From positions 1 to 49,552 of the forward strand of contig JAPPHD010000116.1 in assembly GCA_028821125.1 (NCBI GenBank): a stretch of 49,552 bases of DNA, given 5' to 3'. Shown piece by piece: positions 181 to 14,281 of the stretch (position 1 is the stretch's first letter; each line of letters starts with the position of its first letter). Position numbers and translations under genes: made by a program. Source of the DNA: Gammaproteobacteria bacterium. GTDB taxonomy: Bacteria > Pseudomonadota > Gammaproteobacteria > Pseudomonadales > Azotimanducaceae. Under the pieces are notes generated by a model. It did no database searches and was not told where the DNA came from. It saw nothing but the letters and a program-made list of their open reading frames with translations.

Positions 181-257
181 TGGCGGAGCGGACGGGACTC
201 GAACCCGCGACCCCCGGCGTGACAGGCCGGTATTCTAACCAGCTGAACTACCGCTCC
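181..257 (-). tRNA. tRNA-Asp (anticodon GTC)
   Basis: Read on the minus strand this folds as a full cloverleaf: acceptor arm GGAGCGG paired with CCGCTCC, a D-arm with GGTTAGAA, anticodon loop CTGTCAC giving GTC (aspartate), T-loop TTCGAGT, and a genomically encoded CCA at 183-181. It lies one base downstream of tRNA-Val and is most likely co-transcribed with it. Confidence 0.97.
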
Positions 258-258
258 G

Positions 259-334
259 TGGTGGGTGTTGCAGGGCTCGAACCTGCGACCTACGGCTTGT
301 AAGGCCGTCGCTCTCCCAACTGAGCTAAACACCC
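259..334 (-). tRNA. tRNA-Val (anticodon TAC)
   Basis: A 76-nt cloverleaf on the minus strand: acceptor GGGTGTT paired with AACACCC, D-arm GCTC/GAGC, anticodon loop CTTACAA giving TAC (valine), T-arm GCAGG/CCTGC with loop TTCGAGC, and encoded CCA at 261-259. It is the first gene of a Val-Asp pair. Confidence 0.97.
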
Positions 335-5942: not shown

Positions 5943-6590
5943 TCAATCGTCGTCCGGGCCGGTCAATCCGTGCTTCCAGACGGAAATGCGGCCGAGCATT
6001 TCACGGCCGATCAGGTCCATCTTGCCCAGTTGTCGTAGGCGGGGCATGTTCCGCTCGATTTCCGCTTCTTCGAAGGCTGTCCGGAGGACGCCGCAGGCAT
6101 CGGCGAGCGATACAAGTGCTACATCCCGGGGATCGGGTATCTGGTCTGAAGACAGCAGTTCGGAAATGCGCAGACTTGCCGACCGCATGCGCTCGCCGTC
6201 GACCGGCGGGTAGCGCCGGGAGCGGAAAAATCCGAGCACCTTTGTGTCGCGCCGCTCGACGATGCCGCGCTCCACCAGGCTTGCCAGTGCCTGTTCGCGG
6301 ATGTTTGCCGCCTCTTCGCCGCTCAGCGCCTTCAGCCAGTCGACGGCTGACCGTGCCTTTCGGCTGCTCACGATGCGTTCGAGCACCTCGTCGAGCATCG
6401 GGTTGTGTGTGGGCGTTGCGTCCGTGACCGTCAACCGCTCGAGGTCCGTGTCGATACGGTTCGCGAAAGCCAGGTCCATCAGAACGGCCCCCACCAGCGC
6501 GTGGCCCAGCGCATGCCGGGTTACCGGCAGGAACTTGCCCTGTTCGTCCTCGAGCAGCAGGAGCAGGATTTCTTCGGCAAACGTCAGCAT
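5943..6590 (-). CDS. GPP34 (Golgi phosphoprotein 3)-domain protein
   Basis: The 215-aa product begins MLTFAEEILLLLLEDEQGKF, the hallmark opening of the GPP34/Vps74 fold, followed by the all-helical domain. In eukaryotes the fold binds phosphatidylinositol-4-phosphate and glycosyltransferases; bacterial relatives are mostly uncharacterised and I do not infer a specific role. The start (ATG at 6590) overlaps the stop of the upstream TIGR02453 gene as TGATG, so the two are translationally coupled. A longer reading frame continues upstream in this frame but overlaps the neighbour and lacks the domain. Confidence 0.82.
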   Translation of the reverse strand: MLTFAEEILLLLLEDEQGKFLPVTRHALGHALVGAVLMDLAFANRIDTDLERLTVTDATPTHNPMLDEVLERIVSSRKARSAVDWLKALSGEEAANIREQALASLVERGIVERRDTKVLGFFRSRRYPPVDGERMRSASLRISELLSSDQIPDPRDVALVSLADACGVLRTAFEEAEIERNMPRLRQLGKMDLIGREMLGRISVWKHGLTGPDDD

Positions 6591-7288
6591 CAGAACTCGA
6601 CGCCGACGGCCGTGCACAGGAACGCCATCAGCGGGGTCGCCCTGGCAAAGCGCTCCGCCACTTCCTCGGGAAAGCCCGCGCCGGCCGCCCGCTCGATGGA
6701 AAAGTCGCTGACGCCGATGAAGTCCTTGCGCTTGATGTCTTCCAGGTGGGGCAGGTCGGGCGCAAAGCCCCGGGGCGGCCGCTTCAGGCTGTTGCCCGCG
6801 AACGTGTACTCGCTCTTGAAGCGTCGCGACCGCAACACCTTGCGCCAGGCATCGGGATGCTCGGCAATGCGCTCGCGGATTGCCTTGAGGGCGGCCGGCT
6901 CGGGGTGCCACATGCCCGCGCCGAGGAAGCAGCCGGTGGTTTCTATGTGCAGGTAGTAGCCCGGCGCGTGTACGTCCCTGCCCTGCTCATGGCGGAACTG
7001 AATGCCGATGTTCGTCTTGTACGGCGTCTTGTCCCGGCTGAAGCGGGTGTCGCGGTAGACGCGCATGAGCGAGCCGCCCATGCGTTTGGGAATGGCGGTG
7101 AAGCACTCCGACACCCGCGCCAGTAACGGCCCCATGGCGCCGATGAAGGCGAGCGCCGGTTCCAGAACGTCGCTGTCGTAACGGTGCTTGTTCTCCTGGA
7201 ACCAGGCGCGGTTGTTGTTGTCTTCCAGGTCCTCGAGGAACCGGACCGTGTCCGCGCCGAAACCGTTGAAACCGGAATTGCCGCTCAT
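6590..7288 (-). CDS. TIGR02453/DUF2461 family protein
   Basis: The 232-aa product shows the family signatures FNGFGADTVRFLEDLEDNNN near the start, AWFQENKHRYD, RDTRFSRDKTPYKTNIGIQF, and GYYLHIE followed by the GAGMWHP block. The family is of unknown biochemical function. I chose ATG 7288, preceded by AGAGGT, over an in-frame ATG at 7324, because the latter lies inside the terminal repeat of the 183-bp element at 7308-7490. It is followed directly by the GPP34 gene with a 1-nt overlap, an association I would take as functional. Confidence 0.85.
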   Translation of the reverse strand: MSGNSGFNGFGADTVRFLEDLEDNNNRAWFQENKHRYDSDVLEPALAFIGAMGPLLARVSECFTAIPKRMGGSLMRVYRDTRFSRDKTPYKTNIGIQFRHEQGRDVHAPGYYLHIETTGCFLGAGMWHPEPAALKAIRERIAEHPDAWRKVLRSRRFKSEYTFAGNSLKRPPRGFAPDLPHLEDIKRKDFIGVSDFSIERAAGAGFPEEVAERFARATPLMAFLCTAVGVEF

Positions 7289-7307
7289 TGCGATACCTCT
7301 GAACCTA

Positions 7308-7490
7308 TAGCCCGACCTATTCATGAATAAACTACTGCGGCCGTCAATAGCAGCGAAACACTTAAGCGTGCTCCCGCCGCGTGCTCAACGTGCTGTCAAG
7401 CACGGTAAGCGCGCGCTCTTACTCCGCGCACCCAGTGCTTTCACTACTCTTGCCAGCCTCGCTACGTTCATTCACGAATAGGTCGGGCTA
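7308..7490. mobile_element. MITE-like element with 21-bp terminal inverted repeats
   Basis: TAGCCCGACCTATTCATGAAT (7308-7328) is repeated inverted at 7470-7490 with one mismatch, enclosing about 141 bp that encode nothing. An internal hairpin CGTGCT-GTCA-AGCACG is present. The size and ends fit a non-autonomous transposon; the end sequence reminds me of IS1380-type ends, but I cannot verify that. No clear target duplication is visible (left flank CCTA, right flank ATTC). It abuts the TIGR02453 gene start and supplies an alternative in-frame ATG to it. Confidence 0.7.
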
Positions 7491-7881
7491 ATTCGCGGAT
7501 CAGGCCGGCAAACGGGTCGAGACCGTTCCCCATCACCGCATTCCTGTCGGGGCCGGGCATGGCCCCGCCGGGCGAGTCCCGTCGGCAGGACCGGGCCCTC
7601 GATGGCATCCGGACAGGCACGGGCCTCGCATCCGGCGTGCCGTCAGGAACGCGGCATCCTAGTCGAGACACTCGATGCACGCCAGCGGCCGGGGGCGGTG
7701 CCGGCACTTGCGGACAGGGTTTTTCCAAAGCCACCCCGCTATGCTCTACTACACGTTCAGTTCGCGGACAAGGTAGCCAAGTGAGTCAGGATCGCGCCCG
7801 TTCGCGGCTTTCCGGTCGAGCCGGGGCATCACCCGGCCAGACCTCGTACCGTTTCCCGTTCAACGTCGCGGAGGTTTGAGC
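7491..7881. other. Spacer upstream of the ThDP enzyme, nothing certain
   Basis: Short frames exist on both strands but none has recognisable sequence, a ribosome site or family signatures. The only supported element is GGAGG at 7870-7874, the ribosome site of the following gene. Confidence 0.5.
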
Positions 7882-9546
7882 ATGCGGGCACAACAGGTCT
7901 TCATGGAGAGCCTTCTCGCGCATGGGGTCGACAGCATCTTCGGCAACCCCGGCACCACCGAGAATTCCCTGCTCGACCGGCTGGCCGACTACCCGCAGAT
8001 CGGCTACTACGTCGTGCTGCACGAAGGCGTTGCCGTGGGCGCCGCAAACTACTATGCGCAGGCCGCCGGCAGGACGCCCGTGGTCAACCTGCACGTCGCG
8101 CCCGGCCTCGGCAATGCCATCGGCATGATGTACGGGGCGCTGAAGGCGCGGGCGCCGATGCTGGTCACCGCCGGCCAGCAGGACACACGCCTGCAACTGC
8201 GGGAGCCGCTGCTCTCCCATGACCTGGTCGCCATGGCCGCGCCGGTCACCAAGTGGAGCGCCGAACCCAAGGCACCGGACGAGGTCGCGCCCATGCTGCG
8301 CCGGGCGTTCCAGATCGCCAACCGGCCGCCCGCCGGGCCCGTTTTCATGTCGCTGCCGGTCAATGTCATGGAAGGCGAAACCGGCGCAACAGACACCGCG
8401 CCGGCCAGGCTGCAGGTCGCCAGTCCGCCCGACCCCAATGGGCTTGCGAAGGCTGTCGACCTGCTGCTCGACAGCGACTCGCCCGCCATCGTGACGGGCG
8501 ATGACATCGCACCGGACGGGGCGTTTTCCTCGCTCGTGGCATTCGCGGAAACCCTCGGCGCGCCGGTCTGGCAACTGGGCCTGCGCTCCCAGGTAGTCTT
8601 CCCGAGCCGTCATGCGAACTACAAGGGACGGCTTGCGCTGGATGCGGCCGGGATTCGCGACGCACTGAAGGGGCGCGATCTCGTGTTCCTGCTCGGCGGG
8701 CCCGGCTGGGAAGAACTGTGGTTCGACGGAGCGAGCCCCCTGCCGGAGGGTGTGCCGGTGGTCGAACTGCAGAACGCCTCCGAGCTTCTGGCTTTCAACG
8801 ATCCCGTGGATGTCGGCATGGCCGGCGGCCTCGCCGTTTCGCTGCACAGGCTCCGGGAGGAATTGCACGCCCGCGGTGGGAACGGTCTCGCCGCGGCCGC
8901 CGCAGCCCGGAACGCGGCGCTTGCCGACGAAAAGGCTGCCGAGCTGCAGGCGGTGAACGCGCGCCTCGAGAAACTCTGGGATACGAGTCCCATGACGCCG
9001 GCCCGGGCCCTGCACGAAGTCGCGACCGCGGCGCCGGAGGATGTGGTGATCGCCGACGAGTCCATCACCGCGTCTCTGGAGGTATGGGGCCACTTCAACT
9101 TTCAGCGCCCGGGCGACTACTACGGCGGCAAGGGCGGCGGCATCGGCCAGGGGATCGCCGGCGCCATCGGCACGAAGGTCGCCCATCCCGACAGGCCGGT
9201 GCTGGCGATTTCCGGGGACGGGTCGGCGATGTACAGCATCCAGGCGCTCTGGACCGCTGCCCACCACCGTTTGCCCATTGTCTTCGTGATTCTCTCCAAC
9301 CGGGAATACCGGGTGCTGAAGCACAACATGGACATCTACCGGCATCGCTACGATGCCCGCTCCAACCGCCCCTATCCGCACATGGATCTCACCGAACCGG
9401 CACTCGGCTTTGTGGAAATGGCGCGCGGCATGGGCGTCGACGGCGTTCAGGTCACCGAACCGGAACAGGTGGCTCCGGCCATCCGCAAGGGCTTTGCGTC
9501 CGGCGCGCCCTACCTCGTCGATCTCGTGATTTCCGGCAAGGTGTGA
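7882..9546 (+). CDS. Thiamine-diphosphate enzyme, benzoylformate decarboxylase-like
   Basis: The 554-aa product has the three-domain ThDP decarboxylase layout: N-terminal pyrimidine-binding domain with FGNPGTTEN, the activating glutamate in LHEGVAVGAA and a His in NLHVAPGLGNAIG matching the benzoylformate decarboxylase active site; a middle domain; and a C-terminal diphosphate-binding domain with GDGSAMYSIQALW and the closing asparagine of VILSNREY. It probably decarboxylates a 2-oxo acid such as benzoylformate; MdlC is the closest family I recognise, but acetolactate-synthase-like relatives with other substrates exist. Start ATG 7882 has GGAGG 7 nt upstream; an in-frame TTG 6 nt earlier is less likely. 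It stands alone. Confidence 0.85.
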   Translation: MRAQQVFMESLLAHGVDSIFGNPGTTENSLLDRLADYPQIGYYVVLHEGVAVGAANYYAQAAGRTPVVNLHVAPGLGNAIGMMYGALKARAPMLVTAGQQDTRLQLREPLLSHDLVAMAAPVTKWSAEPKAPDEVAPMLRRAFQIANRPPAGPVFMSLPVNVMEGETGATDTAPARLQVASPPDPNGLAKAVDLLLDSDSPAIVTGDDIAPDGAFSSLVAFAETLGAPVWQLGLRSQVVFPSRHANYKGRLALDAAGIRDALKGRDLVFLLGGPGWEELWFDGASPLPEGVPVVELQNASELLAFNDPVDVGMAGGLAVSLHRLREELHARGGNGLAAAAAARNAALADEKAAELQAVNARLEKLWDTSPMTPARALHEVATAAPEDVVIADESITASLEVWGHFNFQRPGDYYGGKGGGIGQGIAGAIGTKVAHPDRPVLAISGDGSAMYSIQALWTAAHHRLPIVFVILSNREYRVLKHNMDIYRHRYDARSNRPYPHMDLTEPALGFVEMARGMGVDGVQVTEPEQVAPAIRKGFASGAPYLVDLVISGKV

Positions 9547-11270: not shown

Positions 11271-12946
11271 GCCGCTGCCTGTCGCGACTCCCCGTTACGC
11301 AAAGACACGATCACCGAGGCAGCTTCCAGCATGACGAGAACGCTGGTGCCCAGCACGATCGCCCCGATACCAACCAGCAGATAATTGCCCGCCGCAAAGA
11401 GCTGGTTCAGCGTCACCACCCCCGCCGAGAACGACATGACCAGCACGAACAGCATCGGCGCCATGGTGTACCAGGCGGGCCGCCCCAGTTTCATCAGCAG
11501 CACCGTCAGGACCAGTAGCGTCAGCCCGGCGAGAAGCTGGTTGGTCGACCCGAATAACGGCCACAGAACCAGCCCGCCGGCCCCGCTCGCCCCGCCCGCG
11601 CCGAACGCCAGCAACAGGCAGGCGCCCACCGCCAGGGCGGTGGCGAGCACACTGTTGCCGAGCACGGGAACTCCATAGATCTCGCCCCACTCCTGGATGA
11701 TGTAGCGCTGCAGGCGCACCCCGGAGTCCATGGTCGTGCCGGCGAACAGCACGACCATGGTGGCGAGCATGGTCTGGGCGACCCCCACGGGCAGCCCCCA
11801 GCCAGAGCTGATCAGGTTGGCCCCGCCCTGTATGAAGCTGGCTGCCCCGGCCGAGCCGAACTCGCTGTACATCGCGTGCCACTCTTCGGTGGTGGCGGCC
11901 AGCGTCACACCCGTTACCGCAACGATGGTGATCAGCGCCAGCGACCCTTCGCCGACGGCGCCGAGATAGCCCACGAAACGCGCATCGGGCTCGCGGTCGA
12001 GCTGCTTTGAGCTGGTGCCCGAGGCGACGATGCCGTGAAACCCGGACACGGCGCCACAGGCGATGGTGACGAACAGCAGCGGAACGATCGACGGTGCGCT
12101 CTCGCCCAACCGGTCGTTGAACGCCGGCGCGGCGATGTCCGGCATCACCAGCAACACCGCCCCGTACAGCAGCGCCAACCCGAGAAAGAGCTGAACGCCG
12201 TTGATGAAGTCGCGCGGCTGCAGCAGCACCCAGACCGGCAGCATGGAGGCCACGGCCGCGTACAGGAAGAGAATGAGTATCCAGTTGGCCTGGGGCGCCA
12301 GGCCGAACATCGCCGGCAGCTCCAGCGGCATGAGATCGCCGACGTAGATGGAGACGTACAGGGCGGCCACCCCGCCGATGCACAGCGCAATGAGGTTGAA
12401 CCGGCGATGCAGCAGTTGCCCGATGACCAGTGCAACCACAATGGCCGCCCAGGCCGGAAAAACGGCGCTCGGCGTGTTCACGAACGCCCGCGCGATGATC
12501 ACGCCGAATACCGAGTTCACCATGAGCAGCAGCAGGAACACCACCACCATGTAAAGCTTGCGCGTGCGCGCCCCCACCACGGATTCCGACAGCACGCCGA
12601 TGGAGCGCGCCTTGTGCCGGTTGCTCGCCCACAACGCCCCGAAGTCGTGCACGCCGGCGAAAAAGATCGTGCCCAGCACCACCCAGGCCACCGCCGGCGC
12701 CCAGCCCCAGTACACGGCAATCGCCGGCCCCACGATGGGCGCCGCACCCGCCACCGACGTAAAGTGATGGCCCCACAGCACGTAGCGGTTGGTGGGGACG
12801 AAGTCGACGCCGTCGCTGAACTCGTGGGCGGGGGTCACGAATTCCGGGTCGAGCCGGAAGATGCGCTCGGCAATGAACCGCGAGTAGACGAACCAGCCGA
12901 AACACATCCCGGCGATGCCGAGCAGCACGACGAACACCGAGTGCAT
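11267..12946 (-). CDS. cstA: CstA-family carbon-starvation peptide/pyruvate transporter
   Basis: The 559-aa polytopic inner-membrane protein matches CstA: FVPTNRYVLWGHHFTSVAGAAP-type opening, GTIFFAGVHDFGALWASNRHK, the HGIVASGTSSKQL block and WPLFGSTNQLLAGL near the C-terminus. Family members import peptides or pyruvate during carbon starvation. It is shorter than the roughly 700-aa E. coli protein and lacks its C-terminal extension, which is common in other phyla. A longer upstream frame exists, but family alignment points to ATG 12946. It is divergent from the selenoprotein gene and coupled downstream to the lipoprotein. Confidence 0.92.
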   Translation of the reverse strand: MHSVFVVLLGIAGMCFGWFVYSRFIAERIFRLDPEFVTPAHEFSDGVDFVPTNRYVLWGHHFTSVAGAAPIVGPAIAVYWGWAPAVAWVVLGTIFFAGVHDFGALWASNRHKARSIGVLSESVVGARTRKLYMVVVFLLLLMVNSVFGVIIARAFVNTPSAVFPAWAAIVVALVIGQLLHRRFNLIALCIGGVAALYVSIYVGDLMPLELPAMFGLAPQANWILILFLYAAVASMLPVWVLLQPRDFINGVQLFLGLALLYGAVLLVMPDIAAPAFNDRLGESAPSIVPLLFVTIACGAVSGFHGIVASGTSSKQLDREPDARFVGYLGAVGEGSLALITIVAVTGVTLAATTEEWHAMYSEFGSAGAASFIQGGANLISSGWGLPVGVAQTMLATMVVLFAGTTMDSGVRLQRYIIQEWGEIYGVPVLGNSVLATALAVGACLLLAFGAGGASGAGGLVLWPLFGSTNQLLAGLTLLVLTVLLMKLGRPAWYTMAPMLFVLVMSFSAGVVTLNQLFAAGNYLLVGIGAIVLGTSVLVMLEAASVIVSLRNGESRQAAA

Positions 12947-13047
12947 TGACGATTCCCAAGCCCGATGACGCGGCGAGCATAGCAGGGGAAATTGATCTTG
13001 CCCAAGGGGGATGGCAGCATGGGCGCGTTCCACAAGGATCGAACGAA

Positions 13048-13392
13048 ATGACCGCCACAAGGGTTGACTGGTACTACTTCCGCAGCGGCTGAACAAGCTG
13101 CAAGCGGGCCTCCAAGTTCCTGGAGGCGAGAAACATCGAGGTGGCCGAAACCGTACTGGCCAGCCGCAAGCTGCAGCGCGGCGACGCCGTGGCGCTGCTC
13201 GAAGCGGCTACCGCCGCCCACGTTGCCAAGGGCAGAAAGCTGCAGCAATTCACCGGCGCCGACAGGCTCTCAGACGAGGCGGTAACCGCCATGCTCGGGT
13301 CCACGGGCAACCTCCGGGCTCCCACCCTCCGTGTGGGCGGCACCCTGCTCGTTGGCTTCAACGAATCCGTCTACGCCGAGGTGTTCGACTAG
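13048..13392 (+). CDS. ArsC-family selenoprotein (UGA-encoded selenocysteine in a UxxC motif)
   Basis: Reading from ATG 13048 (AAGGA upstream), the frame meets a single in-frame TGA at 13090-13092, then stays open to TAG at 13390-13392. With TGA read as selenocysteine the 114-aa product contains VDWYYFRSG-U-TSCKRA, a thioredoxin-fold redox motif with Sec at residue 15 and Cys at 18, and a C-terminal half TGNLRAPTLRVGGTLLVGFN that I recognise as the ArsC/Spx-like family in which selenoproteins occur. A bacterial-type SECIS hairpin follows the UGA. It is likely a glutaredoxin- or thiol-dependent reductase; its substrate is unknown. Conventional annotation would give only a truncated 83-aa frame from 13141. 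The genome must then carry selA, selB, selC and selD outside this window. Confidence 0.88.
13090..13127 (+). promoter_or_regulatory. UGA codon with bacterial SECIS hairpin
   Basis: Directly downstream of UGA 13090-13092 is a 7-bp perfect stem GCCTCCA (13108-13114) / TGGAGGC (13121-13127) with the 6-nt apical loop AGTTCC. The loop begins 22 nt after the UGA and has G in its first two positions, matching the known bacterial SECIS rules (loop about 16-37 nt after UGA, early G in the loop). It lies within the coding sequence, as expected in bacteria. Confidence 0.82.
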
Positions 13393-13465
13393 CGTTCACG
13401 TGCCCCGCGTCCGGCGCCGGCGCATTCCGCCGGTTCCGCGATTGAGAGCGGGCGCAACGGCCCGT

Positions 13466-14281
13466 TCAGGCTGACGGGTTGCCCAGAAACACCTTGCTGC
13501 AGAACTCGGTGCGGCTGTTCACGTCGAGCTTGCCGAATACGTGCTGAACGTGACTGCGCAGCGTCGGCATCGAGATGTGCAGCGTCTCGCTGATCTTCTT
13601 GTCGGGCAAGCCCTCCAGAACCGCAGCCGCGACGTCGAGTTCCCGCCGGGTCAGGCTGTAACTGTCACACAGTGACTTGCGAATCTCGTCCACCTCGAGC
13701 GCCGGAATCCTGTGCTTGGCGAACAGGATATTGCGCATGGCATTCCTGAAGTGCGGCGCGATCATGTCCAGTATTTCCAACTCCCGCCGGTCGAAATTGG
13801 CGCGCTTGCGCGAACGCCACACCCGGAAGTCGCCGATGTTCCGGTTGCCGTTGTCGTAGACGTAGATGTTGATTCCGTAATAGAGCCCGTCCCTGGCAAG
13901 AAAGTCGTTGAAGAACTCCGTATTGATCAGGTCCTGCTGGGCCATCACTTCATTGACTGAAACCGCCCGCCGGTACGGCTGCATCCTAAACGTGATTGGG
14001 TCGTGGAACTGGTAGTACTGATCGTAGAGCTTCAGGTTCTCCGGCGACATGTTCAAGTACACCGGCCTCGCGAAGACGCCCCCGCGCTCGTCCCAGATGA
14101 AAGAGGCAAAATAGTCCGCCGACAGGAGGTCGAGCAGGTCCCGCCCCGCGCGCTCCCGGACGTCGCAGTCGTCCAGGCTGTCATTCAGGTGTTGAATGAC
14201 ACTCAACAGTTTGCGCCACTGCTTCTGCGTGAGATTCACGAGCCCACTGTACTCCCTCCAATCGTTCCTCGCATTCGACAC
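13466..14281 (-). CDS. LuxR-type transcriptional regulator
   Basis: The 271-aa product has a C-terminal LuxR/NarL helix-turn-helix (about residues 208-265: YSLTRRELDVAAAVLEGL then ISETLHISMPTLRSHVQHVF and GKLDVNSRTE) and a roughly 190-aa N-terminal part without an obvious receiver or autoinducer domain; GAF/PAS-like ligand sensing is possible. It lies 102 bp downstream of the TonB-dependent receptor gene on the same strand, so it may control that receptor-amidase unit. It converges with the selenoprotein gene. Confidence 0.85.
   Translation of the reverse strand: MSNARNDWREYSGLVNLTQKQWRKLLSVIQHLNDSLDDCDVRERAGRDLLDLLSADYFASFIWDERGGVFARPVYLNMSPENLKLYDQYYQFHDPITFRMQPYRRAVSVNEVMAQQDLINTEFFNDFLARDGLYYGINIYVYDNGNRNIGDFRVWRSRKRANFDRRELEILDMIAPHFRNAMRNILFAKHRIPALEVDEIRKSLCDSYSLTRRELDVAAAVLEGLPDKKISETLHISMPTLRSHVQHVFGKLDVNSRTEFCSKVFLGNPSA

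Follow-up and report, generated by a model that had tools for sequence, protein, structure and literature searches.

An ArsC-family gene of the NF041106 type whose in-frame UGA is very probably read as selenocysteine

Results and Discussion

The locus and its reading frame

The window, by which we mean the whole stretch of 49,552 nucleotides analysed here, carries a short gene flanked by a CstA-family gene in divergent and a LuxR-type regulator in convergent orientation. Its frame is open from ATG to TAG save for one in-frame TGA at codon 15 (Table 1). With the TGA read as U, this codon stands in the context FRSG-U-TSC. Both starting points of the initial annotation, namely that a single TGA splits an otherwise intact frame and that standard gene calls would report only a truncated product of 83 residues, are borne out, the former by translation of the window and the latter by a conventional ORF list, whose sole entry in this frame opens with a GTG downstream of the TGA. 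A scan of positions 12900-13480 for sigma-70-type promoters returned no candidate.

Table 1. Positions of the gene, its recoding elements and other features in the window
Feature	Position	Strand	Basis
CDS, predicted ArsC-like selenoprotein, 114 residues	13048..13392	+	read-through of TGA codon 15; NF041106 match; conservation
Start codon ATG	13048		translation of the window
Stop codon TAG	13390..13392		translation of the window
In-frame TGA, inferred Sec15 of U-T-S-C18	13090..13092	+	conserved as TGA in 71 of 73 rows
Bacterial SECIS-type hairpin	13108..13127	+	7-bp stem, 6-nt loop AGUUCC; fold, synonymous constraint
Hairpin 5' arm, GCCTCCA	13108..13114		
Hairpin loop, AGTTCC (G at loop position 2)	13115..13120		
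Hairpin 3' arm, TGGAGGC	13121..13127		
AAGGA, Shine-Dalgarno-like candidate	13034..13038	+	9 nt upstream of ATG; by eye
GTG ORF in the same frame, 83 aa	13141..13392		conventional ORF list
Two adjacent tRNA genes	184..334	-	

Family membership of the read-through product

The comparison with ArsC-family (seleno)proteins that the initial annotation had proposed gives a match of the read-through product to the NCBIfam model NF041106 (ArsC_rel_Se_1, "ArsC family (seleno)protein") with 106.3 bits against a cut-off of 85 and over the entire profile (1-107 of 107). No other family listed exceeds its cut-off; the scores for the Pfam models ArsC and Glutaredoxin and for the Spx/MgsR model all lie under theirs. 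All 31 members of our alignment A2 likewise match NF041106 at E <= 0.001. The UxxC motif reads U15-T-S-C18, and 70 of 70 aligned rows have U or C at position 15 and C at position 18. Also invariant in these rows are W8, Y10, R12, A38, K41, L42, G62, L83, G84, T86, G87, N88, R90, P92 and G103. Among PDB sequences, those nearest to the family profile are 2m46, a putative arsenate reductase (1.4e-08), and Spx (1.2e-06). By family membership the protein would have a thioredoxin fold of the ArsC/Spx-like branch.

Distribution of the gene and conservation of the TGA

When the NF041106 profile was searched against 206 genomes from the same bacterial family as the window (E <= 1e-9), it returned 110 matches in 109 genomes and 27 of 37 genera, with 106 genomes at or above the cut-off. 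Exactly one TGA interrupts 107 of the 110 matches, three interrupt one (G593) and none interrupts the remaining two (G481 and G551). The other 97 genomes, some of them incomplete, gave no match at this threshold, and therefore the gene seems dispensable. Among 398 genomes searched across the phylum (E <= 1e-12), the one that contains the window was the only one with a match to the family.

Seventy-three rows were read codon by codon: the returned loci, a hand-picked set, three named loci from public data, and the copy in the window itself. The public loci come from metagenome-assembled genomes labelled Gammaproteobacteria or Pseudomonadales; rows with UGA were located by tblastn. Thirteen weaker matches from 58 relatives (22.5-31.4 bits, under the cut-off and with no internal stop) were excluded, by score, as other ArsC/Spx-like proteins. 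The codon aligned to residue 15 is TGA in 71 of the 73 rows and TGT in one (L084, from G481); the remaining row (L087, from G551) has a run of N there. The initial annotation had named homologues with a stop codon and neither Cys nor Sec (selenocysteine) at this position as evidence that would count against it; the sole relative with a sense codon there, L084, encodes Cys. Removal of rows with identical 51-mers left 66 distinct rows, the window's own included (L037 and L049 represent a single gene). At least 95 codons stay open past the TGA in 65 of these 66, the exception being L086, which ends after 42; it comes from G593, a genome 72% complete, where the UGA-bearing frame is interrupted early.

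These counts bear directly on the reading in which the gene has decayed through a nonsense mutation, the TGA, and yields either the product of the 83-residue downstream ORF or nothing at all. Such a reading could draw on the fact that the window's hairpin, considered alone, is not far above chance. It is contradicted, however, by conservation: the TGA recurs at the aligned codon in nearly every row, the frame beyond it stays open, and W8, Y10 and R12, which lie upstream of the TGA, are invariant throughout. We therefore regard decay as extremely improbable.

Selenocysteine machinery in the same genome

The initial annotation had pointed to selA, selB, selC and selD as the genes to look for, a lack of Sec machinery being evidence that would count against it, and all four were found in the genome from which the window comes. 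Contig C142 carries selA (518.5 bits), selB (385.5) and selC (75.8) together and contig C33 carries selD (277 bits), each over its cut-off, and ARAGORN calls a tRNA-Sec with anticodon tca. In L016 (1393-3576, minus strand) selD is part of a fused ORF of 727 residues, the N-terminal portion of which is a pyridine nucleotide-disulphide oxidoreductase domain. For the assembly, completeness is 97.3% and contamination 2.45%. The genome also holds a second UGA gene, SelW-like (TIGR02174, 50.1 bits; Pfam Rdx), with one TGA and a product of 73 residues in which the CxxU motif reads C-V-Q-U; the Fdh-alpha match in the same genome contains no internal stop.

Across 58 genomes, our own included, a selA match (E <= 0.001) is present in all 25 that carry the gene over its cut-off, as against 14 of the 33 others; in two of the 25 (G024 and G026) the match is under the selA cut-off. 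selB exceeds its cut-off in 6 of 7 genomes checked, among them G481, which encodes the Cys form, and the gene-less G001 and G005, while G593, with its UGA gene present at 72% completeness, gave no selB over the cut-off.

That TGA might be reassigned throughout the genome, for example to Trp, is a reading already contradicted on three counts. The one sense codon found at residue 15 specifies Cys, the tRNA-Sec together with SelA, SelB and SelD is present, and TGA serves as the terminal stop of this same gene in 6 of 28 rows among those listed. We consider it next to impossible.

A separate observation concerns locus L076, in which two integrase-type ORFs (6720-7592 and 7846-8505, plus strand) directly follow the tRNA-Sec gene (selC, 6461-6553). 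Arm-DNA-bind_3 is found in both and Phage_int_M in the first, as though a mobile element attached at the tRNA-Sec gene.

The hairpin in the window and across relatives

A stem of 7 bp closing a 6-nt loop with G at position 2 had been described as starting 16 nt past the TGA, and it is present in the window exactly so, with 15 nt between UGA and stem and 22 nt between UGA and loop. The constraints on bacterial SECIS elements given in the legend of Fig. 2 of PMC13188914 (a stem of 4-16 bp, a loop of 3-9 nt with G at its first or second position, a UGA-to-loop distance of 16-37 nt, MFE <= -7.5 kcal/mol) were applied by script, and the window's hairpin satisfies them with loop 6, stem 7 bp, G at 2, distance 22 nt and -13.3 kcal/mol for the folded 33-nt stretch. 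Considered as a single sequence, it is only weakly above chance. The z-score of its fold against shuffles is -1.07, with 29 of 200 shuffles equally stable; under a lax rule (loop 3-14 nt) some hairpin forms in 62% of 5000 mononucleotide shuffles and a stem of at least 7 bp in 2.5%; and of 20,000 synonymous versions drawn from the codon usage pooled over the relatives, with the protein held fixed, 4.7% give the complete 7-pair stem. Rfam, run over the whole window at its gathering threshold, reports two tRNAs and nothing else. A permissive Rfam scan of 12900-13500 gave one match that overlaps the hairpin (E 0.66). It is to a viral frameshift family with no relation to the gene and lies far under that family's cut-off, and we take it as chance.

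The geometric rule decides nothing by itself, because it is satisfied by 66 of 66 distinct rows, by 45.8% of another 5000 mononucleotide shuffles (loop 3-9 nt) and even by the Cys relative L084. What does decide is conservation in register. Over the 66 distinct 51-mers (own included) a mean of 5.98 of the 7 pairs is formed, compared with 4.51 under synonymous resampling (500 runs, sd 0.13, maximum 4.83), and it is this conserved pairing that sets the hairpin above chance. From the outermost pair inwards, pairs are formed in 62, 64, 19, 55, 66, 64 and 65 rows; the third, formed in just 19, is A.A in 37. In the common register 64 of 66 rows have G at loop position 2 and two do not. Pairs changed on both sides are seen at the second position (C-G to U-A in 3 of 66 rows) and at the fourth (U-A to G-C in one row and to G-U in another), and single rows have U-A at the third, fifth and sixth. 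The energy limit of -7.5 kcal/mol is reached by 22 of 66 rows, the window's own among them (33-nt stretch; range -14.8 to -4.9).

Codon choice shows the same constraint. Among 56 codons compared over the 66 rows, the four strongest synonymous deviations all fall on hairpin codons, in the order +7 (Ser TCC, 52 of 53), +10 (Leu TTG, 55 of 62), +8 (Lys AAG, 61 of 61) and +6 (Ala GCA, 44 of 63), with the fifth strongest, +24, lying outside the hairpin; an earlier run on 27 rows gave the same pattern. Since these tests ignore shared ancestry, the constraint statistics are to be taken as descriptive.

Two loci, L091 and L098, keep the TGA and have a different hairpin, built around CATG and without G at loop position 2; this branch may have rebuilt its SECIS.

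Interpretation and candidate functions

We conclude with high confidence that the UGA is read as selenocysteine, because the product matches NF041106, TGA occupies the aligned codon among relatives, the hairpin codons are biased, and selA, selB, selC and selD occur in the genome together with a SelW-like UGA gene; the Cys codon of L084 agrees with this. The gene as a whole would thus, we are nearly certain, encode a 114-residue member of the NF041106 family in which codon 15 is decoded as Sec with the aid of the hairpin and Sec15 and Cys18 are predicted to form a redox center. Mechanistically, SelB and tRNA-Sec would be recruited by the hairpin that starts at the 16th nucleotide past the UGA and would decode codon 15 as Sec. 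In the resulting Sec15-x-x-Cys18 center the selenolate would be expected to attack a disulfide or another oxidised substrate, and Cys18 would then resolve the selenenyl-sulfide, as in glutaredoxins and YffB-type proteins.

As for function, an analogy with better-described relatives favors a UxxC oxidoreductase of glutaredoxin- or YffB-like type. We infer this from two comparisons. First, the stretch of Spx that contains Gly52, a residue called essential for binding of the RNA polymerase alpha-CTD in PMC3386922, aligns to a gap in the family profile (a distant alignment, with numbering counted by hand). Second, in the account given in PMC3169414, classical ArsC has three arginines (Arg60, Arg94 and Arg107), whereas YffB keeps one arginine of this triad and binds glutathione. 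The protein family studied here resembles YffB and ArsC-related proteins (PDB 1rw1, 2kok) in its predicted ArsC-type fold and in having one invariant arginine past the UxxC where YffB has one triad arginine. It differs from YffB, which according to PMC3169414 has a single Cys, in its Sec-Cys pair, and the sequence similarity is weak (0.0027 for 1rw1, 0.41 for 2kok). No conserved neighbor points to a pathway: the widest neighbor cluster covers 7 of 73 rows, most of them with flanks of about 1.5 kb or less.

Alternatively, the selenoprotein could be a Spx-like regulator, in which the U-x-x-C motif would be no catalytic center but a redox switch governing attachment to RNA polymerase. Spx (PDB 1z3e, 3gfk, 6ghb) is ArsC-type by sequence, as is our protein, and is one of the closest proteins in the PDB; its C-T-S-C lines up with our U-T-S-C, and both have L-R-x-P and V-G-Y-N close to the end. 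Moreover, the Spx/MgsR model TIGR01617 is matched at E 1e-06, and 27 of the 31 A2 members match it as well (E <= 0.001). That match, however, amounts to just 29 bits where the cut-off is 75.05, and the Gly52 stretch is missing in the protein family, albeit by the distant alignment described above. We consider this reading unlikely. The more specific proposal of a selenium-dependent redox sensor of the Spx type in Gram-negatives, in which a Sec-Cys bond would switch binding to RNA polymerase or another partner, we hold to be quite unlikely; if it were true, selenium supply and oxidant level would jointly set gene expression.

Very unlikely, in our estimation, is a genuine arsenate reductase with Sec as its nucleophile. 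Pfam ArsC (PF03960) does give a weak match of 19 bits, under its gathering cut-off of 24, and all 70 aligned rows keep Arg90. Against this, the classical enzyme uses three arginines by the description in PMC3169414, and R90 is the sole invariant arginine past the UxxC within the alignment of the 70 rows. Nor does any ars-family Pfam match occur among the 8 window ORFs near the gene, two of which match no Pfam family at all.

Place among described selenoproteins

The model cd03032 is presumably the ArsC_Spx model. It appears in the Global Ocean Sampling selenoproteome, drawn from ocean metagenomes, where a table entry reads "Arsenate reductase 2, cd03032, UxxC" (PMC2398784); by that table description this entry and our protein are alike, both being ArsC-type with UxxC. 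ArsC-like selenoproteins are listed in PMC1794560 as well, PMC9312934 tabulates an "Arsenate reductase-like protein, COG1393, UxxC", and the 2026 review PMC13188914 equates NF041106 with "Arsenate reductase-like protein, UxxC". The novelty implied by the initial annotation does not hold, the family being already catalogued in the latter two. Judged by the model and these table descriptions, the gene described here scores over the cut-off, covers the full profile and has the UxxC motif, and no feature was found that sets it apart from NF041106. It is an ordinary further member of a catalogued, functionally uncharacterised selenoprotein family.

The main use of the finding is therefore to correct annotation, given that a plain ORF list reduces this selenoprotein to an 83-residue fragment; general ideas on recoding are unchanged by it. 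Because the functions of most such selenoproteins are largely uncharacterised according to the PMC13188914 review, the rows read here also constitute a usable starting set for finding one.

Variation among the relatives

The Sec form is the rule in this bacterial family, with one TGA in 107 of 110 matches, and at least one Cys form with a degraded hairpin exists alongside it. In the latter, L084, pairs 1 to 3, counted from the outside, and pair 7 can form, pairs 4 to 6 are broken, and loop position 2 is not G. A midpoint-rooted tree of 69 rows and 113 columns places L084 beside L096 among Sec rows (local support 93/64), with the bootstrap unsettled, and a change from Sec to Cys is the likely direction.

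Two further loci vary in other ways. L088 (G489:C152) carries the ArsC-like selenoprotein gene twice, about 2.2 kb apart, and the copies are identical over the 51 bases from the TGA. In L043 (G008) the gene has a 15-codon in-frame insertion near its 3' end, 14-mers of which recur in L039, from the same genus, but neither in the window nor in any further locus compared; the insertion looks like a dispersed short repeat that enters coding frames.
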